A stretch of DNA of 64,000 nt from Acidimicrobiales bacterium (GCA_036262515.1 DATAIT010000079.1:1-64000); one strand, 5' to 3'. Numbered from the stretch's first letter, positions 16,104 through 31,240 are shown. Made by a program: numbers and translations. The notes: generated by a model not told the origin, from the sequence alone.

Positions 16104-16197
16104 CCGTCATCCAGAGCGGTCGAGGGACCGGGCCCTGCGACACCGCGGCAACCAGCGGGCTTCGGCCCATCAGGTGCCACTGCCCGGAACGATGAGG
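16104..16197 (+). promoter_or_regulatory. SAM-I-like (S-box) riboswitch
   Basis: The stretch contains the hallmark S-box pieces in order: TCATCCAGAGCGG, GAGGGACCGGGCCC, GCGGCAACC, CAGGTGCCA and a closing GATGA that pairs with the opening TCATC. AGAGxGGxxGAGGGA, GGCAACC and GGTGCCA are the core S-adenosylmethionine-binding elements. The closing strand runs directly into AGGAGG, so control may be at translation. It sits before the threonine-synthase-like gene. Confidence 0.85.
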
Positions 16198-16209
16198 AGG
16201 AACCCCAGC

Positions 16210-23410: not shown

Positions 23411-24067
23411 GTGGCACCTGGCCGCCGGCTCCGGCGCGTTGCGAACACGGTGGTGGCCGTCCTGGCCGCCTCGATCGCCCTCGCGGCCTGCGGCGCGCCG
23501 AAGTACCACTACGTGAAGAGCACGAGCAATCGCACCTTCATGCGCGTGCCGTCCGAGTGGAAGCTGTACGACGAGGACGAGCTGCTGGCCGCCAGCGACG
23601 ATTCCGCCGAATCGAAGGAGCAGTTCAAGAAGCTCACATGGTCGGTTGCCTTCGACGCGTCCCCCAAGCCGTCGCTCGACCACATTCTCAGCCAGACCAG
23701 CCACCCCAGCGGCCTGGTGCAGGTGCGCACCCTCCTGCCCGAGCAGCGCGACTCGTTCAAGCTGGCAGACCTACGGTCGCTGCTACTGCCGTTCGACCCC
23801 CTCTCGGAGGACGCCCAGACCCAGGGCGACGTGGAGGTGCTGGACCTGAAGGACGTGCGGCGCGACGGTGGGCTGCACGGCAGCGAGCTCCTCCTCAACC
23901 TCAAGTCGGCGGACGGCAAGCTGTTGAAGTGGCGCCAGATCGCGCTGATCGACGCGGCCGTGAGCAAGGTGCACGTCCTGGCCATCAGCTGTGACGACGC
24001 GTGCTACTCCGCCAACGAGGGCGTGATCGACACCGTCGTCGACTCGTGGAAAGTGAAGGAACGTTGA
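23411..24067 (+). CDS. Lipoprotein of unknown function
   Basis: The 218-residue protein starts with a basic segment, a hydrophobic core and lipobox LAAC (Cys near residue 25), so it should be lipid-anchored outside the membrane. The rest (KYHYVKSTSNRTFMRVPSEW, then alternating strands and helices) resembles the general PsbP/LpqN-type fold of small envelope lipoproteins, but I do not recognise the family. Two Cys (SCDDAC) near the C-terminus may form a disulfide. Its stop overlaps the TTG start of the FtsH-like gene (TTGA), so the two are one operon. Confidence 0.7.
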   Translation: MAPGRRLRRVANTVVAVLAASIALAACGAPKYHYVKSTSNRTFMRVPSEWKLYDEDELLAASDDSAESKEQFKKLTWSVAFDASPKPSLDHILSQTSHPSGLVQVRTLLPEQRDSFKLADLRSLLLPFDPLSEDAQTQGDVEVLDLKDVRRDGGLHGSELLLNLKSADGKLLKWRQIALIDAAVSKVHVLAISCDDACYSANEGVIDTVVDSWKVKER

Positions 24068-26757
24068 CCTCACACACAGACAACGCGAGCAGCGGGCTGG
24101 CCTGGCCGGACCACGACTCCGGTCCGGTCCCGCCTCCTTCCGACGAGGCCCGCAGGCGGGACGAGCGGGAGACCCGCAAGCCGCTGGGCACCTGGGACCG
24201 GGTGAAGTTCCTCGTCCTCATCGGCGGCGTGTGGCTCGTCCTGGTCTGGGCGGCCATGGCCGACGACCCCAACCTGCCGTTCGGCGACGCCGTGCGCACC
24301 CACGTCCGGTCGAACGCCTGGCTCCTCGTGCTGTTCGGGTTGGAGGTCCTCCGCCAGCTCCATTACCTGATCAGCGAGCGGTCGGTCGGGTACCACCGGT
24401 GGTGGACCAACCGCTTCGCGGCTGCCGAGCGCCGCACCGGGAAGATGAACGACTGGACGCGCTACCGCATGGGTCGCGCCTTCAAGTTCCTCCTCGTGCT
24501 CGTGCTGGCCGCGGTCGTGCTCGGCAAGGCGTACGACGTCTCACCCGTGCAGGGCCTGTTCCGCCTGCCCACGGCGATCTGGGGCGCCATGCCGATGATC
24601 GTCCAGGTCATGTTCTTCATGTTCCTGGCCGTGATCCAGTTCGTCGCCATCTTCTGGTTCCTCTCACGCGGCGGCGTGGAGACGTACTTCCCCGAGGACA
24701 TCAAGACCCGCTTCAGCGACGTGTGGGGCCAGGACCCGGTGGTCGAGCGGGTCAAGGAGAACATGCTGTTCCTCGAGAACCCGGAGTCGATCGAGGAGAA
24801 GGGCGGCTACGTCCCCGGCGGCATCCTGTTGTGGGGTCCTCCGGGCACCGGCAAGACGCTGATGGCCGAGGCGGTGGCGGGCGAGACCGGCAAGCCGTAC
24901 GTGTTCGTGGATCCGGGCGCCTTCACCAACATGTTCATGGGCGTCGGCATCCTCAAGGTGAAGTCGCTGTTCCGCAAGCTGCGCAAGCTGGCCGTGCGCT
25001 ACGGCGGCGTGATCGCCTTCTTCGACGAGGCCGACTCCCTCGGCAACCGCGGCGCAGGCGTGTCCGCCGGCTTCCGCTCGCCGGCCGAGGCCCACCAGTG
25101 GGAGCGGCTCACGTCCTGCAACGGGCTGAACTACACGTCGCCCGCCACCGCCTCGATGGTCGTGCGGGCCGGCATGGCCTCGGGCCTGGCCGCCGACGAG
25201 CATCCCGGGCTGGTGTCCCGCTTCGTCATGGGCGCCGGCATGGGCGGCGGCGGAATGGGGACGCTCCAGGCCCTGCTGTCGGAACTGTCGGGCCTGAAGA
25301 AGCCGCGGGGCTTCGTGAACCGGGTCGTGCGCCGCAGCCTCGGCCTGCGGCCCAAGCCGCCGCCCAAGTACCGGCTGATGATCATGATGGCCACCAACAT
25401 GCCGCAGGCTCTCGACGAGGCCCTCCTGCGGCCCGGACGCGTCGACCGCATCTACAAGGTCGGGTATCCGTCGAAGGAGGGGCGCAAGCGAACCTACGAG
25501 GGGTACTTCGCCAAGGTGGCCCACGAGCTCACCGACGCCGACCTCGAGAAGCTGTCGGTCATGACCCCCTACGCCACGGGCGCCAAGATCAAGGACATGG
25601 TGAACGAGTCGCTCATCGTCGCCATCCGCGACGGGCGCAGCAGCATCACGTGGGGCGACGTCATGCGGGCCAAGCAGCTGAAAGACCTCGGGCCGCCTGA
25701 GGACGTGGAGTACATCGAGCGCGAGCGCCATGCCGTGGCCGTGCACGAGGCCTGCCATGCCGTCGCCGCCGTGAAGGTTCGCCGCCACCTCACCATCGAC
25801 ATCGCCACCATCGAGAAGGGCGGCACCTACCTCGGCATGGTCGCGTCCATCCCGCCGGAGGACCAGTTCACGCGGTGGCGCTCGGAGTACGAGGCCGACA
25901 TCATCGTGAGCCTGGCGTCTCTCGCCGGTGAGCGCATCTTCTTCGGCGGCGACAACTCCTCGGGCGTGTCGGGGGACCTCGACAGCGCCACCCGGGTGGC
26001 CACCATGATGGAGGGCTACTGGGGGATGGGGTCCACGGTCGCGTCCCACGGCGTCACCCACGAGGTCGGCATCGGCGGCGGCGGCCGGCCCGGTTCCGGC
26101 GAGGGCAAGGACGGCAAGGACCGCGAGAAGGAGCTGCTCGAGAGCGGCCTGGGCCAGCGCATCGAAGAGAAGCTGGCCGATCTGCTCCACCGGGCCGAGC
26201 GGCTGCTCAGGGAGAACCGCCAGCTGGTACTGGCCGTTGCCCACGCCCTCGAGTCGAACAGGACGCTCACCGGCGAGGACGTCGTCGCCATCGTGGAGGG
26301 GCGGCAGGGCCCGCTGCTCGACGGGCGGCCCTACCACACGCCCGAGTTCCTGGAGCTGGCCGAGCAGTACCACAACGCCGCGGTGTCGGCCCACCAGGGC
26401 CACGGCGACGTGCTGCTGCCGTTGCCGCGCTGGTCGGCCAACGGCTCGAACGGCAGCGGGTCCAACGGCCACAACGGCCATCACGCCTTCCAGCCGCCGC
26501 CCGCGCGGACCGCCGTCGACGCCGAGGCCGAGGAGGTGCGCGTCCCCGACGCACCGGTCGACGAGGCCCACGCAGCGGAGAGCACGGCCGACGACGGTGC
26601 GCCGGCCGGTGACGGACCGGTCGCCGGTGAGGGCGGTCCGGTCGAGACTGTCGCGACCGGCGATGCTGATCCGGCCGAGGCGGCGTCCGACGGGGCGGAC
26701 GACGCCGCTCCTGCGCCCGAGCCCCCCCGGCGCCGGCCGCGCCGGCCCCGTGACTGA
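24064..26757 (+). CDS. FtsH-like membrane AAA+ metalloprotease with HEACH motif
   Basis: The 897-residue protein has a charged N-terminus, about four membrane helices before residue 210, and a AAA+ domain with Walker A GPPGTGKT near 260, Walker B FFDEAD near 321 and ALLRPGRVDR. About 115 residues separate Walker B from sensor 1 (MATN), roughly double the FtsH norm, with a Gly-rich inserted segment. The zinc site is HEACH at 561-565 instead of HEAGH, with the third-ligand Asp in SGDLDSATRV. A 130-residue Ala/Pro/acidic tail follows. It is a divergent FtsH relative, probably a membrane protein quality-control protease. The stop overlaps the start of the haem gene chdC by 8 bp, and the operon begins with a lipoprotein gene. 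Confidence 0.85.
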   Translation: MTSHTDNASSGLAWPDHDSGPVPPPSDEARRRDERETRKPLGTWDRVKFLVLIGGVWLVLVWAAMADDPNLPFGDAVRTHVRSNAWLLVLFGLEVLRQLHYLISERSVGYHRWWTNRFAAAERRTGKMNDWTRYRMGRAFKFLLVLVLAAVVLGKAYDVSPVQGLFRLPTAIWGAMPMIVQVMFFMFLAVIQFVAIFWFLSRGGVETYFPEDIKTRFSDVWGQDPVVERVKENMLFLENPESIEEKGGYVPGGILLWGPPGTGKTLMAEAVAGETGKPYVFVDPGAFTNMFMGVGILKVKSLFRKLRKLAVRYGGVIAFFDEADSLGNRGAGVSAGFRSPAEAHQWERLTSCNGLNYTSPATASMVVRAGMASGLAADEHPGLVSRFVMGAGMGGGGMGTLQALLSELSGLKKPRGFVNRVVRRSLGLRPKPPPKYRLMIMMATNMPQALDEALLRPGRVDRIYKVGYPSKEGRKRTYEGYFAKVAHELTDADLEKLSVMTPYATGAKIKDMVNESLIVAIRDGRSSITWGDVMRAKQLKDLGPPEDVEYIERERHAVAVHEACHAVAAVKVRRHLTIDIATIEKGGTYLGMVASIPPEDQFTRWRSEYEADIIVSLASLAGERIFFGGDNSSGVSGDLDSATRVATMMEGYWGMGSTVASHGVTHEVGIGGGGRPGSGEGKDGKDREKELLESGLGQRIEEKLADLLHRAERLLRENRQLVLAVAHALESNRTLTGEDVVAIVEGRQGPLLDGRPYHTPEFLELAEQYHNAAVSAHQGHGDVLLPLPRWSANGSNGSGSNGHNGHHAFQPPPARTAVDAEAEEVRVPDAPVDEAHAAESTADDGAPAGDGPVAGEGGPVETVATGDADPAEAASDGADDAAPAPEPPRRRPRRPRD

Positions 26758-27448
26758 GCACGGTCGTCCCGAGGCGGTCACCCCGTCGACGGGGTGGGGC
26801 GTCCTCCACCTCTTCTGCAAGGCCGGCCCCTCGGTCGACGCCGAGGCGGTGGTCAGCGCGGTCAAGGCGGCAGCCGGCGACGAGCACCAGGTCGTCTCGT
26901 TCGCCGTCCTCGGGCACAAGGCCGACATCGGCTTCCTGGCCATCGGCCCCGACCTGTGGCGGCTGCGCGCCTTCCAGACGGCGCTCACCACCGCCGGCCT
27001 GGTGGTGGCCGATTCCTACGTGTCGCTCACCGAGGTGTCGGAGTACACGAAGGGAATGCCGCCGGAGCTGCTGACCTCGCGGTTGTACCCGCAGTTGCCG
27101 CCCGCCGGCATGCCGGCCATCTGCTTCTACCCGATGTCGAAGCGCAGGGACCCCGGGCAGAACTGGTTCACGCTGCCGTACGAGGACCGCCAACGCCTCA
27201 TGTTCGAGCACGGCACGTCGGGGCGCGCCTTCAAGGGCCGCGTGCTGCAGCTGGTCACCGGTTCCACCGGCGTCGACGACTACGAATGGGGCGTGACCCT
27301 CTTCGCCGTCCGGCCCGACGACCTCAAGGAGGTCGTCCACACCATGCGGTTCGACGAAGCCTCCGCCGTGTACGCCGACTTCGGCCCGTTCACGACCGGC
27401 CTCGTGGCGGACATCGAGGTCGTGCTGCGCCAGGCCGGCCTGTCGTAG
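26750..27448 (+). CDS. chdC: Coproheme decarboxylase ChdC (HemQ)
   Basis: Member of the chlorite-dismutase-like superfamily that decarboxylates coproheme to haem b in the Gram-positive coproporphyrin-dependent route. The 232-residue protein carries FYPMSKRRDPGQNWFTLP and the proximal-His segment MFEHGTSGRAFKGRVLQLVTG, typical of actinobacterial ChdC, then DDYEWGVTLFA and MRFDEASAVYADFGPF. GTG 26750 overlaps the stop of the FtsH-like gene. Other haem genes are not in the window. Confidence 0.93.
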   Translation: MTEHGRPEAVTPSTGWGVLHLFCKAGPSVDAEAVVSAVKAAAGDEHQVVSFAVLGHKADIGFLAIGPDLWRLRAFQTALTTAGLVVADSYVSLTEVSEYTKGMPPELLTSRLYPQLPPAGMPAICFYPMSKRRDPGQNWFTLPYEDRQRLMFEHGTSGRAFKGRVLQLVTGSTGVDDYEWGVTLFAVRPDDLKEVVHTMRFDEASAVYADFGPFTTGLVADIEVVLRQAGLS

Positions 27449-27625: not shown

Positions 27626-29563
27626 ATGCAGGTTCGCCGGGCGCGGTTCAGTGCAAAGCGTGCCGTCGCTCTCACGATGCTGATCGTGGGAGCCGCCCTT
27701 CCGCTGGCGTTCACTCTCCCGAGTGATGCGCTGTCCCCGGGCACTTTTGTCGGGAATGACGGGAACCTCACGAAGGAGGGATCGACGACCGACTGGTGCA
27801 ACAAGACGGTCGCCGAGCTGGCCGCCCAGGCGCCGCCGAACACCAACGTGTGCCCGGCCGGGGCGAAAGCCCCGAACCTCGTCGTGCAGCTTGACAAGGA
27901 GTCCGGGTCGTCCACCGACGACGCCTTCAGCAACGGGACGAAGGACGACGACGATCCGCCCACGGTGGGTACGGGTGGCGTGCCGCCGAACAAGGACGAC
28001 CTGGTGCGCTTCTACGTGGCCAACGAGAAGGTCGCCGGCAAGGACTTCCTCTACCTCGGCTACGAGCGCATCGCCCCGAACGCGGCCTCTGCGCACGAGG
28101 CCTTCGAGTTCAACCAGAACAAGTGCGCCTACGGCGGTGACCCACTCACGGTCACGTCCGACTCGGTGTGCAGCGCCAACGGGGTCACGCCCGCCCGCAA
28201 GGCTGGCGACGCGCTCTTCTACTACGACTTCGAGGGTGGATCCGACGCGCCGGTGATCTCGGTGTCGCGCTGGATCACGGCCGGCTCCGGCGACCTGTGC
28301 GAGGTCCCGAGCAACAAGAAGCCCCCGTGCTGGGACAAGAAGGTCGCTCTCGACGCGAGCAAGGCAGAAGCGCTCACGAACAGCACGGCCGTACTGGACC
28401 CGCTCAACCCGGGTGCGCCCCGCACGATGCAGCCGAACGAGTTCGGCGAGGCGGCCATCAACCTGACCGACTCCAACCTGATCCCGACGGACAGCTGCCT
28501 CGGCTTCGGGAGCGCCTACGTCGCCAGCCGCTCCTCGGGCAACTCGTCGCAGTCGACCCGCAAGGACTTCATCGCACCGGCGCTGGTGAACATCAACAAC
28601 TGCCAGCCGGCGACGATTTCCATCAAGAAGGTCGACCAGAGCGGCGCCAACCTCGGTGGTGCCACCATCGGCCTGTACAACGACGAGGCCACCGCCGCCC
28701 TCGGCCACGGCGTCTGGGAGCCCACCAGCACCCTGGCGACCGTGTCGGTGCCTGGTGGGAACACCGACACCACGGTGACCAACCCGTGCGTCACCACGGC
28801 CGCCGACTCCACCTGCAACTGGACGGTGACCGGCACGGGGACCAGCCACTTCCTTATCCGGGAGACGGCTGCCCCGGCGGGCTACAACCTGAACACGACG
28901 GCCGTGCACGTCGACGTGACGTTCTCCTCGTCGGTCCAGAACCTGGTCCAGGCCGACATGGTCAACATCCCGGCGAATCGTGATCTGGTCGTCAAGAAGA
29001 TCGACGACGACGATCCGGCCAATCCCGTGTCGGGCGTGGTGTTCAAGGTGGTCGAGGACGTCAGCCCGGCCAGCGACTTCGGTGCGGCCGAGCGGACGGC
29101 ATACGCCTCGGCGACGGTGAAGACCTGCACCACGGGGGCGAACGGCCTGTGCACCGTCACCGACCTCGAACCGGCCAAGTTCTACTGGGTCGTGGAAGCG
29201 TCCCGCCCCGCCGGGTACGGCGACGACACCGGTGCGTCCAGCTGCACCGTCTCCACCGGGCCCGACGTGGTGAAGCGGTGCCGCCGGATCGAGGTGCCCA
29301 TCGGCACCGGCTCCGTGGGACCGGTCGGAGCGACGTTCACCAACCCGCGCCTGTTCAAGGTCGTCACCATCGTCTGTCGCAAGACCGACGGCAAGCTGTA
29401 CGGGTCCGAGGCCGCCTACGACGGCGCCGCCCTCACGGGCACGAACAACACGGCCACGTCGTCGACCGCCGAGGCCGCCATCTGTGCGATGACCGGATCG
29501 GCCGTGCATGACAACGTCACCTACGGGGAGCACTCACCGAACAAGGTGAACATCCCCCGCTAG
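27626..29563 (+). CDS. Secreted surface protein with SpaA/prealbumin-like domains
   Basis: A 645-residue exported protein. ATG 27626 has GGGGGG just upstream and starts a signal peptide (about residues 1-36). The first 330 residues are a Cys-containing domain I do not recognise. From about 330 come two SpaA/Cna-B-type beta-sandwich domains: ATISIKKVDQSGANLGGATI...LIRETAAPAGYNL, and LVVKKIDDDDPANPVSGVVF...WVVEASRPAGYGD. Such domains often carry Lys-Asn isopeptide bonds and build adhesins or pilins. There is no LPxTG sorting signal or C-terminal membrane helix, so anchoring is unclear. It is convergent with the c-di-GMP-riboswitch peptidase. Confidence 0.8.
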   Translation: MQVRRARFSAKRAVALTMLIVGAALPLAFTLPSDALSPGTFVGNDGNLTKEGSTTDWCNKTVAELAAQAPPNTNVCPAGAKAPNLVVQLDKESGSSTDDAFSNGTKDDDDPPTVGTGGVPPNKDDLVRFYVANEKVAGKDFLYLGYERIAPNAASAHEAFEFNQNKCAYGGDPLTVTSDSVCSANGVTPARKAGDALFYYDFEGGSDAPVISVSRWITAGSGDLCEVPSNKKPPCWDKKVALDASKAEALTNSTAVLDPLNPGAPRTMQPNEFGEAAINLTDSNLIPTDSCLGFGSAYVASRSSGNSSQSTRKDFIAPALVNINNCQPATISIKKVDQSGANLGGATIGLYNDEATAALGHGVWEPTSTLATVSVPGGNTDTTVTNPCVTTAADSTCNWTVTGTGTSHFLIRETAAPAGYNLNTTAVHVDVTFSSSVQNLVQADMVNIPANRDLVVKKIDDDDPANPVSGVVFKVVEDVSPASDFGAAERTAYASATVKTCTTGANGLCTVTDLEPAKFYWVVEASRPAGYGDDTGASSCTVSTGPDVVKRCRRIEVPIGTGSVGPVGATFTNPRLFKVVTIVCRKTDGKLYGSEAAYDGAALTGTNNTATSSTAEAAICAMTGSAVHDNVTYGEHSPNKVNIPR

Positions 29564-29581
29564 GCAGGAGCGAGCGCAACA

Positions 29582-29619
29582 GCGACAGGAGCCGGTCTGC
29601 GAGGGCCGGCTCCTGTCGC
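29582..29619. terminator. Bidirectional hairpin between surface protein and peptidase
   Basis: A perfect 14-bp stem GCGACAGGAGCCGG/CCGGCTCCTGTCGC with a 10-nt loop sits between the two convergent stop codons (29563 and 29629), so it can serve both. Confidence 0.75.
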
Positions 29620-29628
29620 GCCCGCTTC

Positions 29629-30945
29629 TCAGGCGACGGAGAAGCTCACGGACTGCGTCGCAGTGGCCCCCGACCCGTCAGTGGCGACCACCCTGGCGGT
29701 GAAGGTCCCCTTCCCCACCCGGCGACCGGCGTCGGTCAACCGGTCCCACGCCACGCTGGCCGTCCCGGCCGGCTCGCTCACGCCCGCCAGCAGCGTCCGC
29801 ACGGTGGCGCCCTTGGCGTTCAGCACCGTGACGGTCACCCTTGCCGGCCCGGATGCGGACCACGACACCACACCCGAGCTGCGGACCGGGCTCGGGTTCA
29901 CGGCCATACCGGAGACGGCCATGGCGGATGGCGCTGGCTCCGGTGCCGTCCCGGCCGGCGCAGTGGTAAAGGTGTCGTGCAGGAAGCGGCGGAGGCCCGG
30001 GACGGATGCGGCGGGCAGGATGGCGTTGTTCTCCTGGGAGGCGGCGCGGGCGGTCGCCGACCCGAAGAGCTGGCGGTAGTCCTCGGCGATCATCTCCCTC
30101 GGGGACCACGCGTGCGAGGTGTTCAAGCGGGCGTCGCCGGTGAGGTCGCGGGCCTCGAGGTACGAGGCGAAGGTGGGGTCCTGCTGGGTGATGTAGGCGT
30201 GGTACAGGCTCCATGCGTGCCCGTACTCATGGGCCAGCTTCGAGTCGCCGCTGTCGAGCCACGAGAGGTACGACGCGTACACGTCGGCGCCGTAGAGCTC
30301 GTAGCGCCCGTCCGACCCGATGCTCGCGCTTGTTGTCGCCGTGTCACCGCCTGAGCCGAGGTCGAAGTGGATCTTCACGGCCGGCGCCTCGGGCCCCACG
30401 AGCCCGAGCATCACGCGGTCGTAGACTTCGCGAGCCGTCACCACGTCGTCGTAGCTCTCCACGCGCATGCCGTTGGGCGCGGCGTACTGCGAGATGGGGT
30501 TGCCGAGCGTCGTGGACCGGACGATGGGCCGCCACCCGAAGTCGGCGGTGGCCGCGCCGGACAGGTCAACTGCGCGGTCGGGCCGGAGCGACCCGGTCGT
30601 GCTCGGCACCCAGTCGGTGCGGATGGCCCGCCACGCCGAGTCCTCCAACGAGACGACGTAGCTCGCGGCGTCGAGGCCTCCGAAGCTGTAGCGCCCGGAC
30701 CCGTCGGCAACCGTCGTGCCGTAGTACACGGTCTGCGTGCCGTCGAAGAGGTAGAACTGCTGGTTTGGGATCCTCGGCTCCCCGGAGTCGAGGACGCCGT
30801 TGCGGTTCAGATCCTGGAACGCGGTCCCCGAGATGGTGCCGGTGCCCGCTTCAGCGGCCGAGACGCCGAACCCCGCCCCGATGATCGCAAGGGCCGCGGC
30901 GACAGCCATTCTGGCCTTCGCCTTCGACGATCGGAGAACGGGCAC
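29629..30945 (-). CDS. Secreted HExxH metallopeptidase with SdrD-B and FlgD-Ig domains
   Basis: The protein has 438 residues from GTG 30945, chosen because GGGAG lies 6 nt upstream (GTG 30957 has none). After a signal peptide comes an SdrD B-like domain (ISGTAFQDLNRNGVLDSGEP, GSGRYSFGGL). The middle is a peptidase-like domain with zinc motif HEYGH (239-243) and a downstream REMIAEDYRQLFG whose Glu residues resemble the third-ligand ExxAE block of lethal-factor/PPEP-like gluzincins. The C-terminus is a FlgD-type Ig domain (VRTLLAGVSEPAGTASVAWD). All parts suggest a cell-surface or matrix protease. The c-di-GMP riboswitch in its leader links it to the motile/sessile switch. Substrate unknown; the neighbouring SpaA-type protein is a candidate. 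Confidence 0.78.
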   Translation of the reverse strand: MPVLRSSKAKARMAVAAALAIIGAGFGVSAAEAGTGTISGTAFQDLNRNGVLDSGEPRIPNQQFYLFDGTQTVYYGTTVADGSGRYSFGGLDAASYVVSLEDSAWRAIRTDWVPSTTGSLRPDRAVDLSGAATADFGWRPIVRSTTLGNPISQYAAPNGMRVESYDDVVTAREVYDRVMLGLVGPEAPAVKIHFDLGSGGDTATTSASIGSDGRYELYGADVYASYLSWLDSGDSKLAHEYGHAWSLYHAYITQQDPTFASYLEARDLTGDARLNTSHAWSPREMIAEDYRQLFGSATARAASQENNAILPAASVPGLRRFLHDTFTTAPAGTAPEPAPSAMAVSGMAVNPSPVRSSGVVSWSASGPARVTVTVLNAKGATVRTLLAGVSEPAGTASVAWDRLTDAGRRVGKGTFTARVVATDGSGATATQSVSFSVA

Positions 30946-31009
30946 GATGGCTCCCACTTGTCGTTGTCTCCCCGCAGATCGGCTGAGCGGCCTTCGGCGC
31001 GCTCACCGG

Positions 31010-31082
31010 TGTTCGGCAGCTCGGCTACCCGCTCGGGCCCGTGGCTTTGCGTCCCCACCTCTCGGTGGGTTTGCTCTTTCGC
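31010..31082 (-). promoter_or_regulatory. Cyclic di-GMP-I (GEMM-I) riboswitch
   Basis: Read on the minus strand: AGAGCAAACC, then CACC-GAGA-GGTG (a stem closed by a GNRA tetraloop), GGGACGCAAAGCCACGGGCC, and a second stem around GCGGGTAGCCGAGCTGCCG. GCAAACC and GGACGCAAAGCCACGGGCC are the conserved ligand-binding core and tetraloop/receptor of the class I element. It ends about 65 nt before the peptidase start at 30945. The rest of 30946-31240 is leader and promoter region without a gene. Confidence 0.9.
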
Positions 31083-31240
31083 AGTTGCGTTCGTTCACTG
31101 ACGTGGTCGGCAGTGCCGGAATCCGACTTGAAGGATCCCGAGACAACGGGGCGTTCGCACCGTTTCGCCCGGCCCTCGACGCTGCGAGGGCGGAGCTCGG
31201 GGACTTCTGCGGCGCCGCGTGCAGCCGCCGCCGCGTGCAG

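Follow-up and report, generated by a model that had tools for sequence, protein, structure and literature searches.

In Clostridioides difficile, the mRNA of the Pro-Pro endopeptidase PPEP-1 carries a class-I riboswitch and is repressed by c-di-GMP, while the adhesins that it targets are under a class-II riboswitch and are activated by c-di-GMP, and cutting by the peptidase releases them (PMC6366702). For the two PPEPs with known substrates, the substrates are encoded beside the peptidase (PMC12828418). We analysed a 64,000-nucleotide stretch of DNA from an Acidimicrobiales bacterium, hereafter the window, which holds a comparable locus. As with PPEP-1/CD2831 of C. difficile and PPEP-2 of Paenibacillus alvei, a gene for a secreted zinc-peptidase-like protein adjoins a surface- or adhesin-type gene, and as in C. 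difficile a riboswitch of the c-di-GMP-I class stands in front of the peptidase gene (PMC6366702, PMC12828418). In contrast to the PPEP systems, the peptidase has no sequence match to them, only a weak fold signal to family M34, and extra SdrD_B and FlgD_ig modules; the partner has neither an LPXTG anchor nor a class-II riboswitch, the two genes are convergent, and the riboswitch pocket contains an A at position 20.

The convergent gene pair and its recurrence

The genome that holds the window (G000) is a draft of 3.41 Mb in 129 contigs and is 97.8% complete. A sequence-only reading of the DNA had described a secreted SdrD_B/HEYGH/FlgD-Ig protein that shares its terminator with a single convergent gene. 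The signal peptide and both module matches bear out the first part, and one perfect hairpin does lie between the two genes (Table 1). Upstream of the SpaA gene, an FtsH-like AAA/M41 protein is followed by a chlorite-dismutase-family protein (24001-27448, + strand).

Table 1. Features of the locus, in window coordinates
Feature	Position	Strand	Basis
Secreted SpaA-repeat protein, 645 aa, type A partner	27626..29563	+	ORF, signal peptide, PF17802 E 6.3e-20
N-terminal domain of partner, ~240 aa, common to L044, L045 and L046 partners (37-45% identity)	27908..28615	+	
Two SpaA (PF17802) repeats, 28613-28936 and 28985-29251	28613..29251	+	prealbumin fold
Bidirectional terminator-like hairpin shared by both genes, 14-bp perfect stem, 10-nt loop	29582..29619	.	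arms 100% complementary
Secreted HEYGH metallopeptidase-like protein, 442 aa	29629..30957	-	ORF, signal peptide, profile matches
FlgD_ig domain, residues 368-428	29674..29856	-	E 6.3e-9
Unclassified peptidase domain, residues 150-345	29923..30510	-	alignment, AF2 model, family searches
Glu288, in E-x-x-A-[ED]-D-Y	30094..30096	-	invariant in 9/9 core loci
HEYGH zinc motif, residues 243-247	30217..30231	-	invariant in 9/9 core loci
SdrD_B domain, residues 44-106	30640..30828	-	E 1.2e-9
GGGGAG, likely ribosome-binding site, 10 nt before GTG start	30968..30973	-	
GEMM-I (c-di-GMP-I class) aptamer	31011..31083	-	cmscan RF03167, 61.7 bits
Aptamer position equivalent to Vc2 G20, here A	31075..31075	-	pocket numbering

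Relatives were sought in 298 genomes of the order and in a collection of 84,980 species. Homologues of the peptidase were found in 3/298 genomes, the window's own included, and at seven loci in the collection. An Acidimicrobiia MAG of the same order (G115), whose locus is the same stretch as L050, was counted once (L010/L050), and the distant homologues G881 and G713 (HEYGHH), which lack a SpaA neighbour, were left out of the count. The core set thus comprises nine non-redundant loci: the window, L034 (genome G066), L010/L050, L044, L045, L046, L047, L048 and L049. A convergent SpaA-type gene lies directly downstream of the peptidase gene in the window and at L034, L044, L045, L046, L047 and L048, that is at 7/9 core loci, so the pair does co-occur in relatives. 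These seven loci span two phyla, Actinomycetota and Myxococcota. The gaps between the convergent genes measure 3-97 bp, and at five of the seven a perfect hairpin of 10-14 bp lies within the gap. That a conserved gene pair is convergent and not co-directional is unusual in itself.

The partners are of two types that have no full-length similarity to each other, type A (window, L044, L045 and L046; 28-35% identity) and type B (L034, L047 and L048; 42-47% identity). The SpaA match of the L048 partner is below the Pfam cut-off, yet the protein shares 42-44% identity with the partners at L034 and L047. In the peptidase tree, a branch with support 96/100 separates the loci with type A partners from those with type B partners. 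The pair, its recurrence, this correspondence of peptidase subfamilies with partner types, and a signal sequence on each window protein can be read directly from the sequences. Paraconexibacter carries both a type A and a type B pair (L046 and L047). The lipobox on each member of the Anaeromyxobacter pair indicates that the two probably share a compartment.

At E <= 1e-4, the partner is the sole PF17802 gene in the complete genome of Paraconexibacter and in the L045 genome, and three such genes were found in the window genome. Since PF17802 genes are this scarce, adjacency of the SpaA gene by chance was rejected. Obligate pairing was rejected as well, since the N-terminal domain of the partner is mostly without a peptidase neighbour: the type A domain occurs in 12/283 genomes of the order, counting that of the window, and tblastn detected no peptidase domain near its other loci within the flanks examined. 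Therefore the pairing is asymmetric, and the peptidase accompanies the partner far more than the partner accompanies the peptidase. Two peptidase relatives have no SpaA partner beside them, G115/L050 and L049; the latter (L049:7848-9593) comes from Bacillota and is fused to SLH domains. A histidine kinase and a LuxR-type response regulator are encoded directly upstream of the Frankiaceae peptidase gene (L044:5357-7437), and a HisKA_3 kinase also lies near the L046 pair, so a different input into the same cassette is possible.

Partner protein and peptidase family

Like sortase-anchored SpaA/CnaB pilins and adhesins, the window partner has tandem prealbumin-like SpaA repeats after a signal peptide. 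Unlike them, it has no LPXTG motif and no C-terminal transmembrane segment (TM), and the five sortase genes of its genome are all on contigs other than the window's. An LPXTG-like motif and a C-terminal TM are absent from 7/7 partners (the C-terminal part of L044 was read separately), in contrast to four other SpaA proteins of G000 and G066, which have LPRTG and a TM. The earlier description of the convergent product as pilin/adhesin-like is therefore a fold-level label only. The absent anchors also speak against release of an adhesin by clipping near a wall anchor, on the C. difficile model, and are still compatible with processing of a secreted or matrix protein. The partner gives a partial NF033902 match below cut-off, its C-terminal region contains Cys, Pro-Pro sites exist in it, and its predicted structure (pLDDT 50) is too poor for interpretation.

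The partner is probably the target of the peptidase, and we infer that it is the substrate whose cutting would change adhesion or matrix properties. It is possible, if rather less than probable, that the SpaA protein is instead a scaffold, anchor or inhibitor, that the two proteins are inherited together as components of a secreted matrix, and that the enzyme acts elsewhere, for example on the LPRTG-anchored SpaA proteins. The partners' lack of the LPRTG and TM seen in those four proteins is consistent with this, as is the presence of prealbumin-like or Ig-like modules on both members of the pair. One anchored SpaA protein (L051:5751-7769, in contig C36 of the window genome) has several Pro-Pro sites shortly before its LPRTG motif and is a possible alternative target. 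However, known PPEP substrates neighbour their enzyme (PMC12828418), which argues for the partner as substrate. The match between subfamily and partner type fits an enzyme-substrate pair equally well and does not tell the two readings apart.

In the peptidase, HEYGH, Glu288, Asp293, Tyr294 and further positions are common to the nine core loci in the alignment. The first His and Glu288 are 45 residues apart, and such a spacing suits gluzincins. Glu288 is a candidate third zinc ligand, and HEYGH with this downstream Glu would make an active gluzincin-type peptidase.

Searches for the family of this domain returned little. The window domain had no Pfam match even at E up to 10 and no sequence-family match in Pfam, NCBIfam or PDB, a profile search of PDB sequences found nothing, and its relatives gave only scattered weak zincin matches in Pfam. 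A phmmer search of PDB with the whole protein yielded nothing beyond weak matches to SdrD and FlgD modules and some chance matches. In the AF2 model of the domain (8 sequences, mean pLDDT 77, pTM 0.74), HEYGH lies on a long helix, and Glu288 on another one further along the chain. Foldseek with this model gave no significant match to a known peptidase (E above 0.1 for M34). M34 structures were the sole recurring peptidase group, at non-significant E values of 0.3-4.6 and probabilities up to 0.28, and one phage protein annotated as M34 was matched at E 0.05 and probability 0.69. Metallopeptidase family M34, which includes the PPEPs, shares with the window peptidase an HExxH motif followed by Glu about 45 residues on; the window peptidase differs in having no sequence match to the family model or to a solved member. 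The likeness of the predicted fold to M34 is suggestive only, a lead and not membership, and the best reading is that the peptidase family is uncatalogued and M34-like only by weak fold matches.

The GEMM-I element and its pocket

The proposal of a GEMM-I element in the leader of the secreted protein proved correct. RF03167, the c-di-GMP-I-GGC model, matched with 61.7 bits where its gathering threshold is 59 (whole-window E 3.9e-12, local E 2.8e-14), and the aptamer ends 53 nt before the GTG start codon of the peptidase gene. The element reads GACGCA where the model consensus is GACGCG, and so lacks G at the counterpart of Vc2 position 47, which we take to be what "GGC" in the model name refers to. 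In the MFE fold of the leader P2 forms, as does a stem within the expression platform, but neither a terminator nor a switch at the ribosome-binding site stands out, and we assign the element no direction (ON or OFF).

No GEMM-I was found at the other loci of the pair, and no Rfam riboswitch, class-II or other, was found before the SpaA gene even at E up to 1. The riboswitch is thus not part of the conserved module and was seen in this genome alone among those examined. From the sequence-only reading there remain the aptamer, the HExxH protein and the recurring pair; opposite control of peptidase and adhesin, release at an anchor and the riboswitch as a part of the module were not supported.

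The window genome has seven GEMM-I elements in total, the window's included. The other six precede a type IV pilin in a pilus cluster (L037 in contig C25, 5056-5148, directly before the pilin gene), three secreted CAP/SCP-like proteins (L038, L039 and L006, in C24, C123 and C60), a beta-helix protein and a short ORF. The pairing of GEMM-I with CAP/SCP-like genes seems to recur in other genomes of the order (L058, L062, L063), and G007:C51:60786-62475 contains three tandem GEMM-I/type IV pilin units (L069, L071, L072) with a spacing of ~830 bp. Elsewhere in the window, a SAM (S-box) riboswitch was detected at 16104-16198 (+ strand, 57.3 bits).

In the numbering of the Vc2 pocket listed in PMC7288161, the window element has A18, G19, A20, G21, C22, C46 and A47, with C92. 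Position 19 varies among GEMM-I elements and position 20 is otherwise invariant: the G20 of the c-di-GMP pocket is present in the 20 other elements compared, six of the window genome and 14 further from the order, and is replaced by A here. A strict-pattern scan of the 298 genomes found A20 once and G20 seventeen times, two of the latter being in the window genome and one (L056) seeming to be a coincidental hit within coding sequence.

A20, A47 and C92 form the combination of the GEMM-Ib (cGAMP) riboswitches of Geobacter, and cGAMP is bound by a class-I riboswitch in which G20 has been mutated to A (PMC7288161, PMC6274999). These facts speak for a GEMM-I of shifted ligand specificity, which would respond to 3',3'-cGAMP or would not tell the ligands apart and would leave the peptidase outside the c-di-GMP regulon; we consider this reading improbable. 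Hypr GGDEF enzymes have Ser or Thr where the canonical GGDEF has Asp (PMC9140294), but the canonical Asp was found in 21/21 readable GGDEF domains of the window genome, a count in which the C36 domain was too degenerate to read and the frame-split C50 domain was taken as readable. No SMODS cyclase was found in this genome either, and so no source of cGAMP, whether a Hypr GGDEF or a CD-NTase. Unlike in Geobacter, the A20 element is a single copy beside six canonical G20 elements, and its single occurrence in 298 genomes gives no sign of a maintained class. The C50 domain (G000:C50:5086-5560; L031, L032) is broken across two frames and represents a pseudogene or an assembly error.

It is unlikely, too, that the element is a decaying or weak GEMM-I, in which A20 lowers affinity with little effect, or that A20 is a sequence error of the draft genome. 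A20 was seen in no other element and is a one-base departure in a 129-contig assembly, and relatives retain the cassette without any GEMM-I, but the rest of the aptamer is well kept, with a score above gathering and a P2 stem with GNRA loop, and the element is properly placed before the ribosome-binding site. The ligand is most likely still c-di-GMP, perhaps bound more weakly through A20. The many canonical GGDEF proteins and the six other G20 GEMM-I elements, most of them before pilin, CAP or other secreted genes, favour c-di-GMP regulation.

Meaning of the locus

We assign a probability of about 0.5 to the reading of the locus as an enzyme-substrate cassette with dinucleotide-dependent peptidase synthesis. 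In such a cassette, a secreted zinc metallopeptidase from an undescribed family would process the secreted SpaA-repeat protein. The cyclic dinucleotide level would probably set the amount of peptidase made, the partner being under no known riboswitch, and one copy of a PPEP-like cassette would have been captured by a GEMM-I switch in this genome. Against this reading stand the absence of any significant match, by sequence or by fold, to a known peptidase, the often unpaired partner domain, the two peptidase relatives without a SpaA partner, the partners without an anchor, the confinement of the riboswitch to this genome among those examined and the non-canonical base in its pocket.

A more far-reaching reading, in which a new SpaA-dedicated peptidase family is passed on with its partners as a convergent cassette across phyla and is here under a GEMM-I shifted to cGAMP or to relaxed specificity, seems very doubtful to us. 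If the pocket were shifted, the peptidase would receive an input different from the rest of the cell's c-di-GMP regulon. A natural A20 GEMM-I among otherwise canonical elements offers a clean test case for whether a single base can redirect a gene to a different second messenger.

None of the parts is of a new kind. What appears new is their combination, the uncatalogued family of peptidases together with its conserved convergent partner, and the private A20, and no prior description of them was found in the open-licence papers searched. If the pair works as proposed, most members of this uncatalogued family would come with a candidate substrate at hand, and attach/process systems resembling the PPEP-adhesin pairs would have a second origin, in Actinomycetota and Myxococcota.
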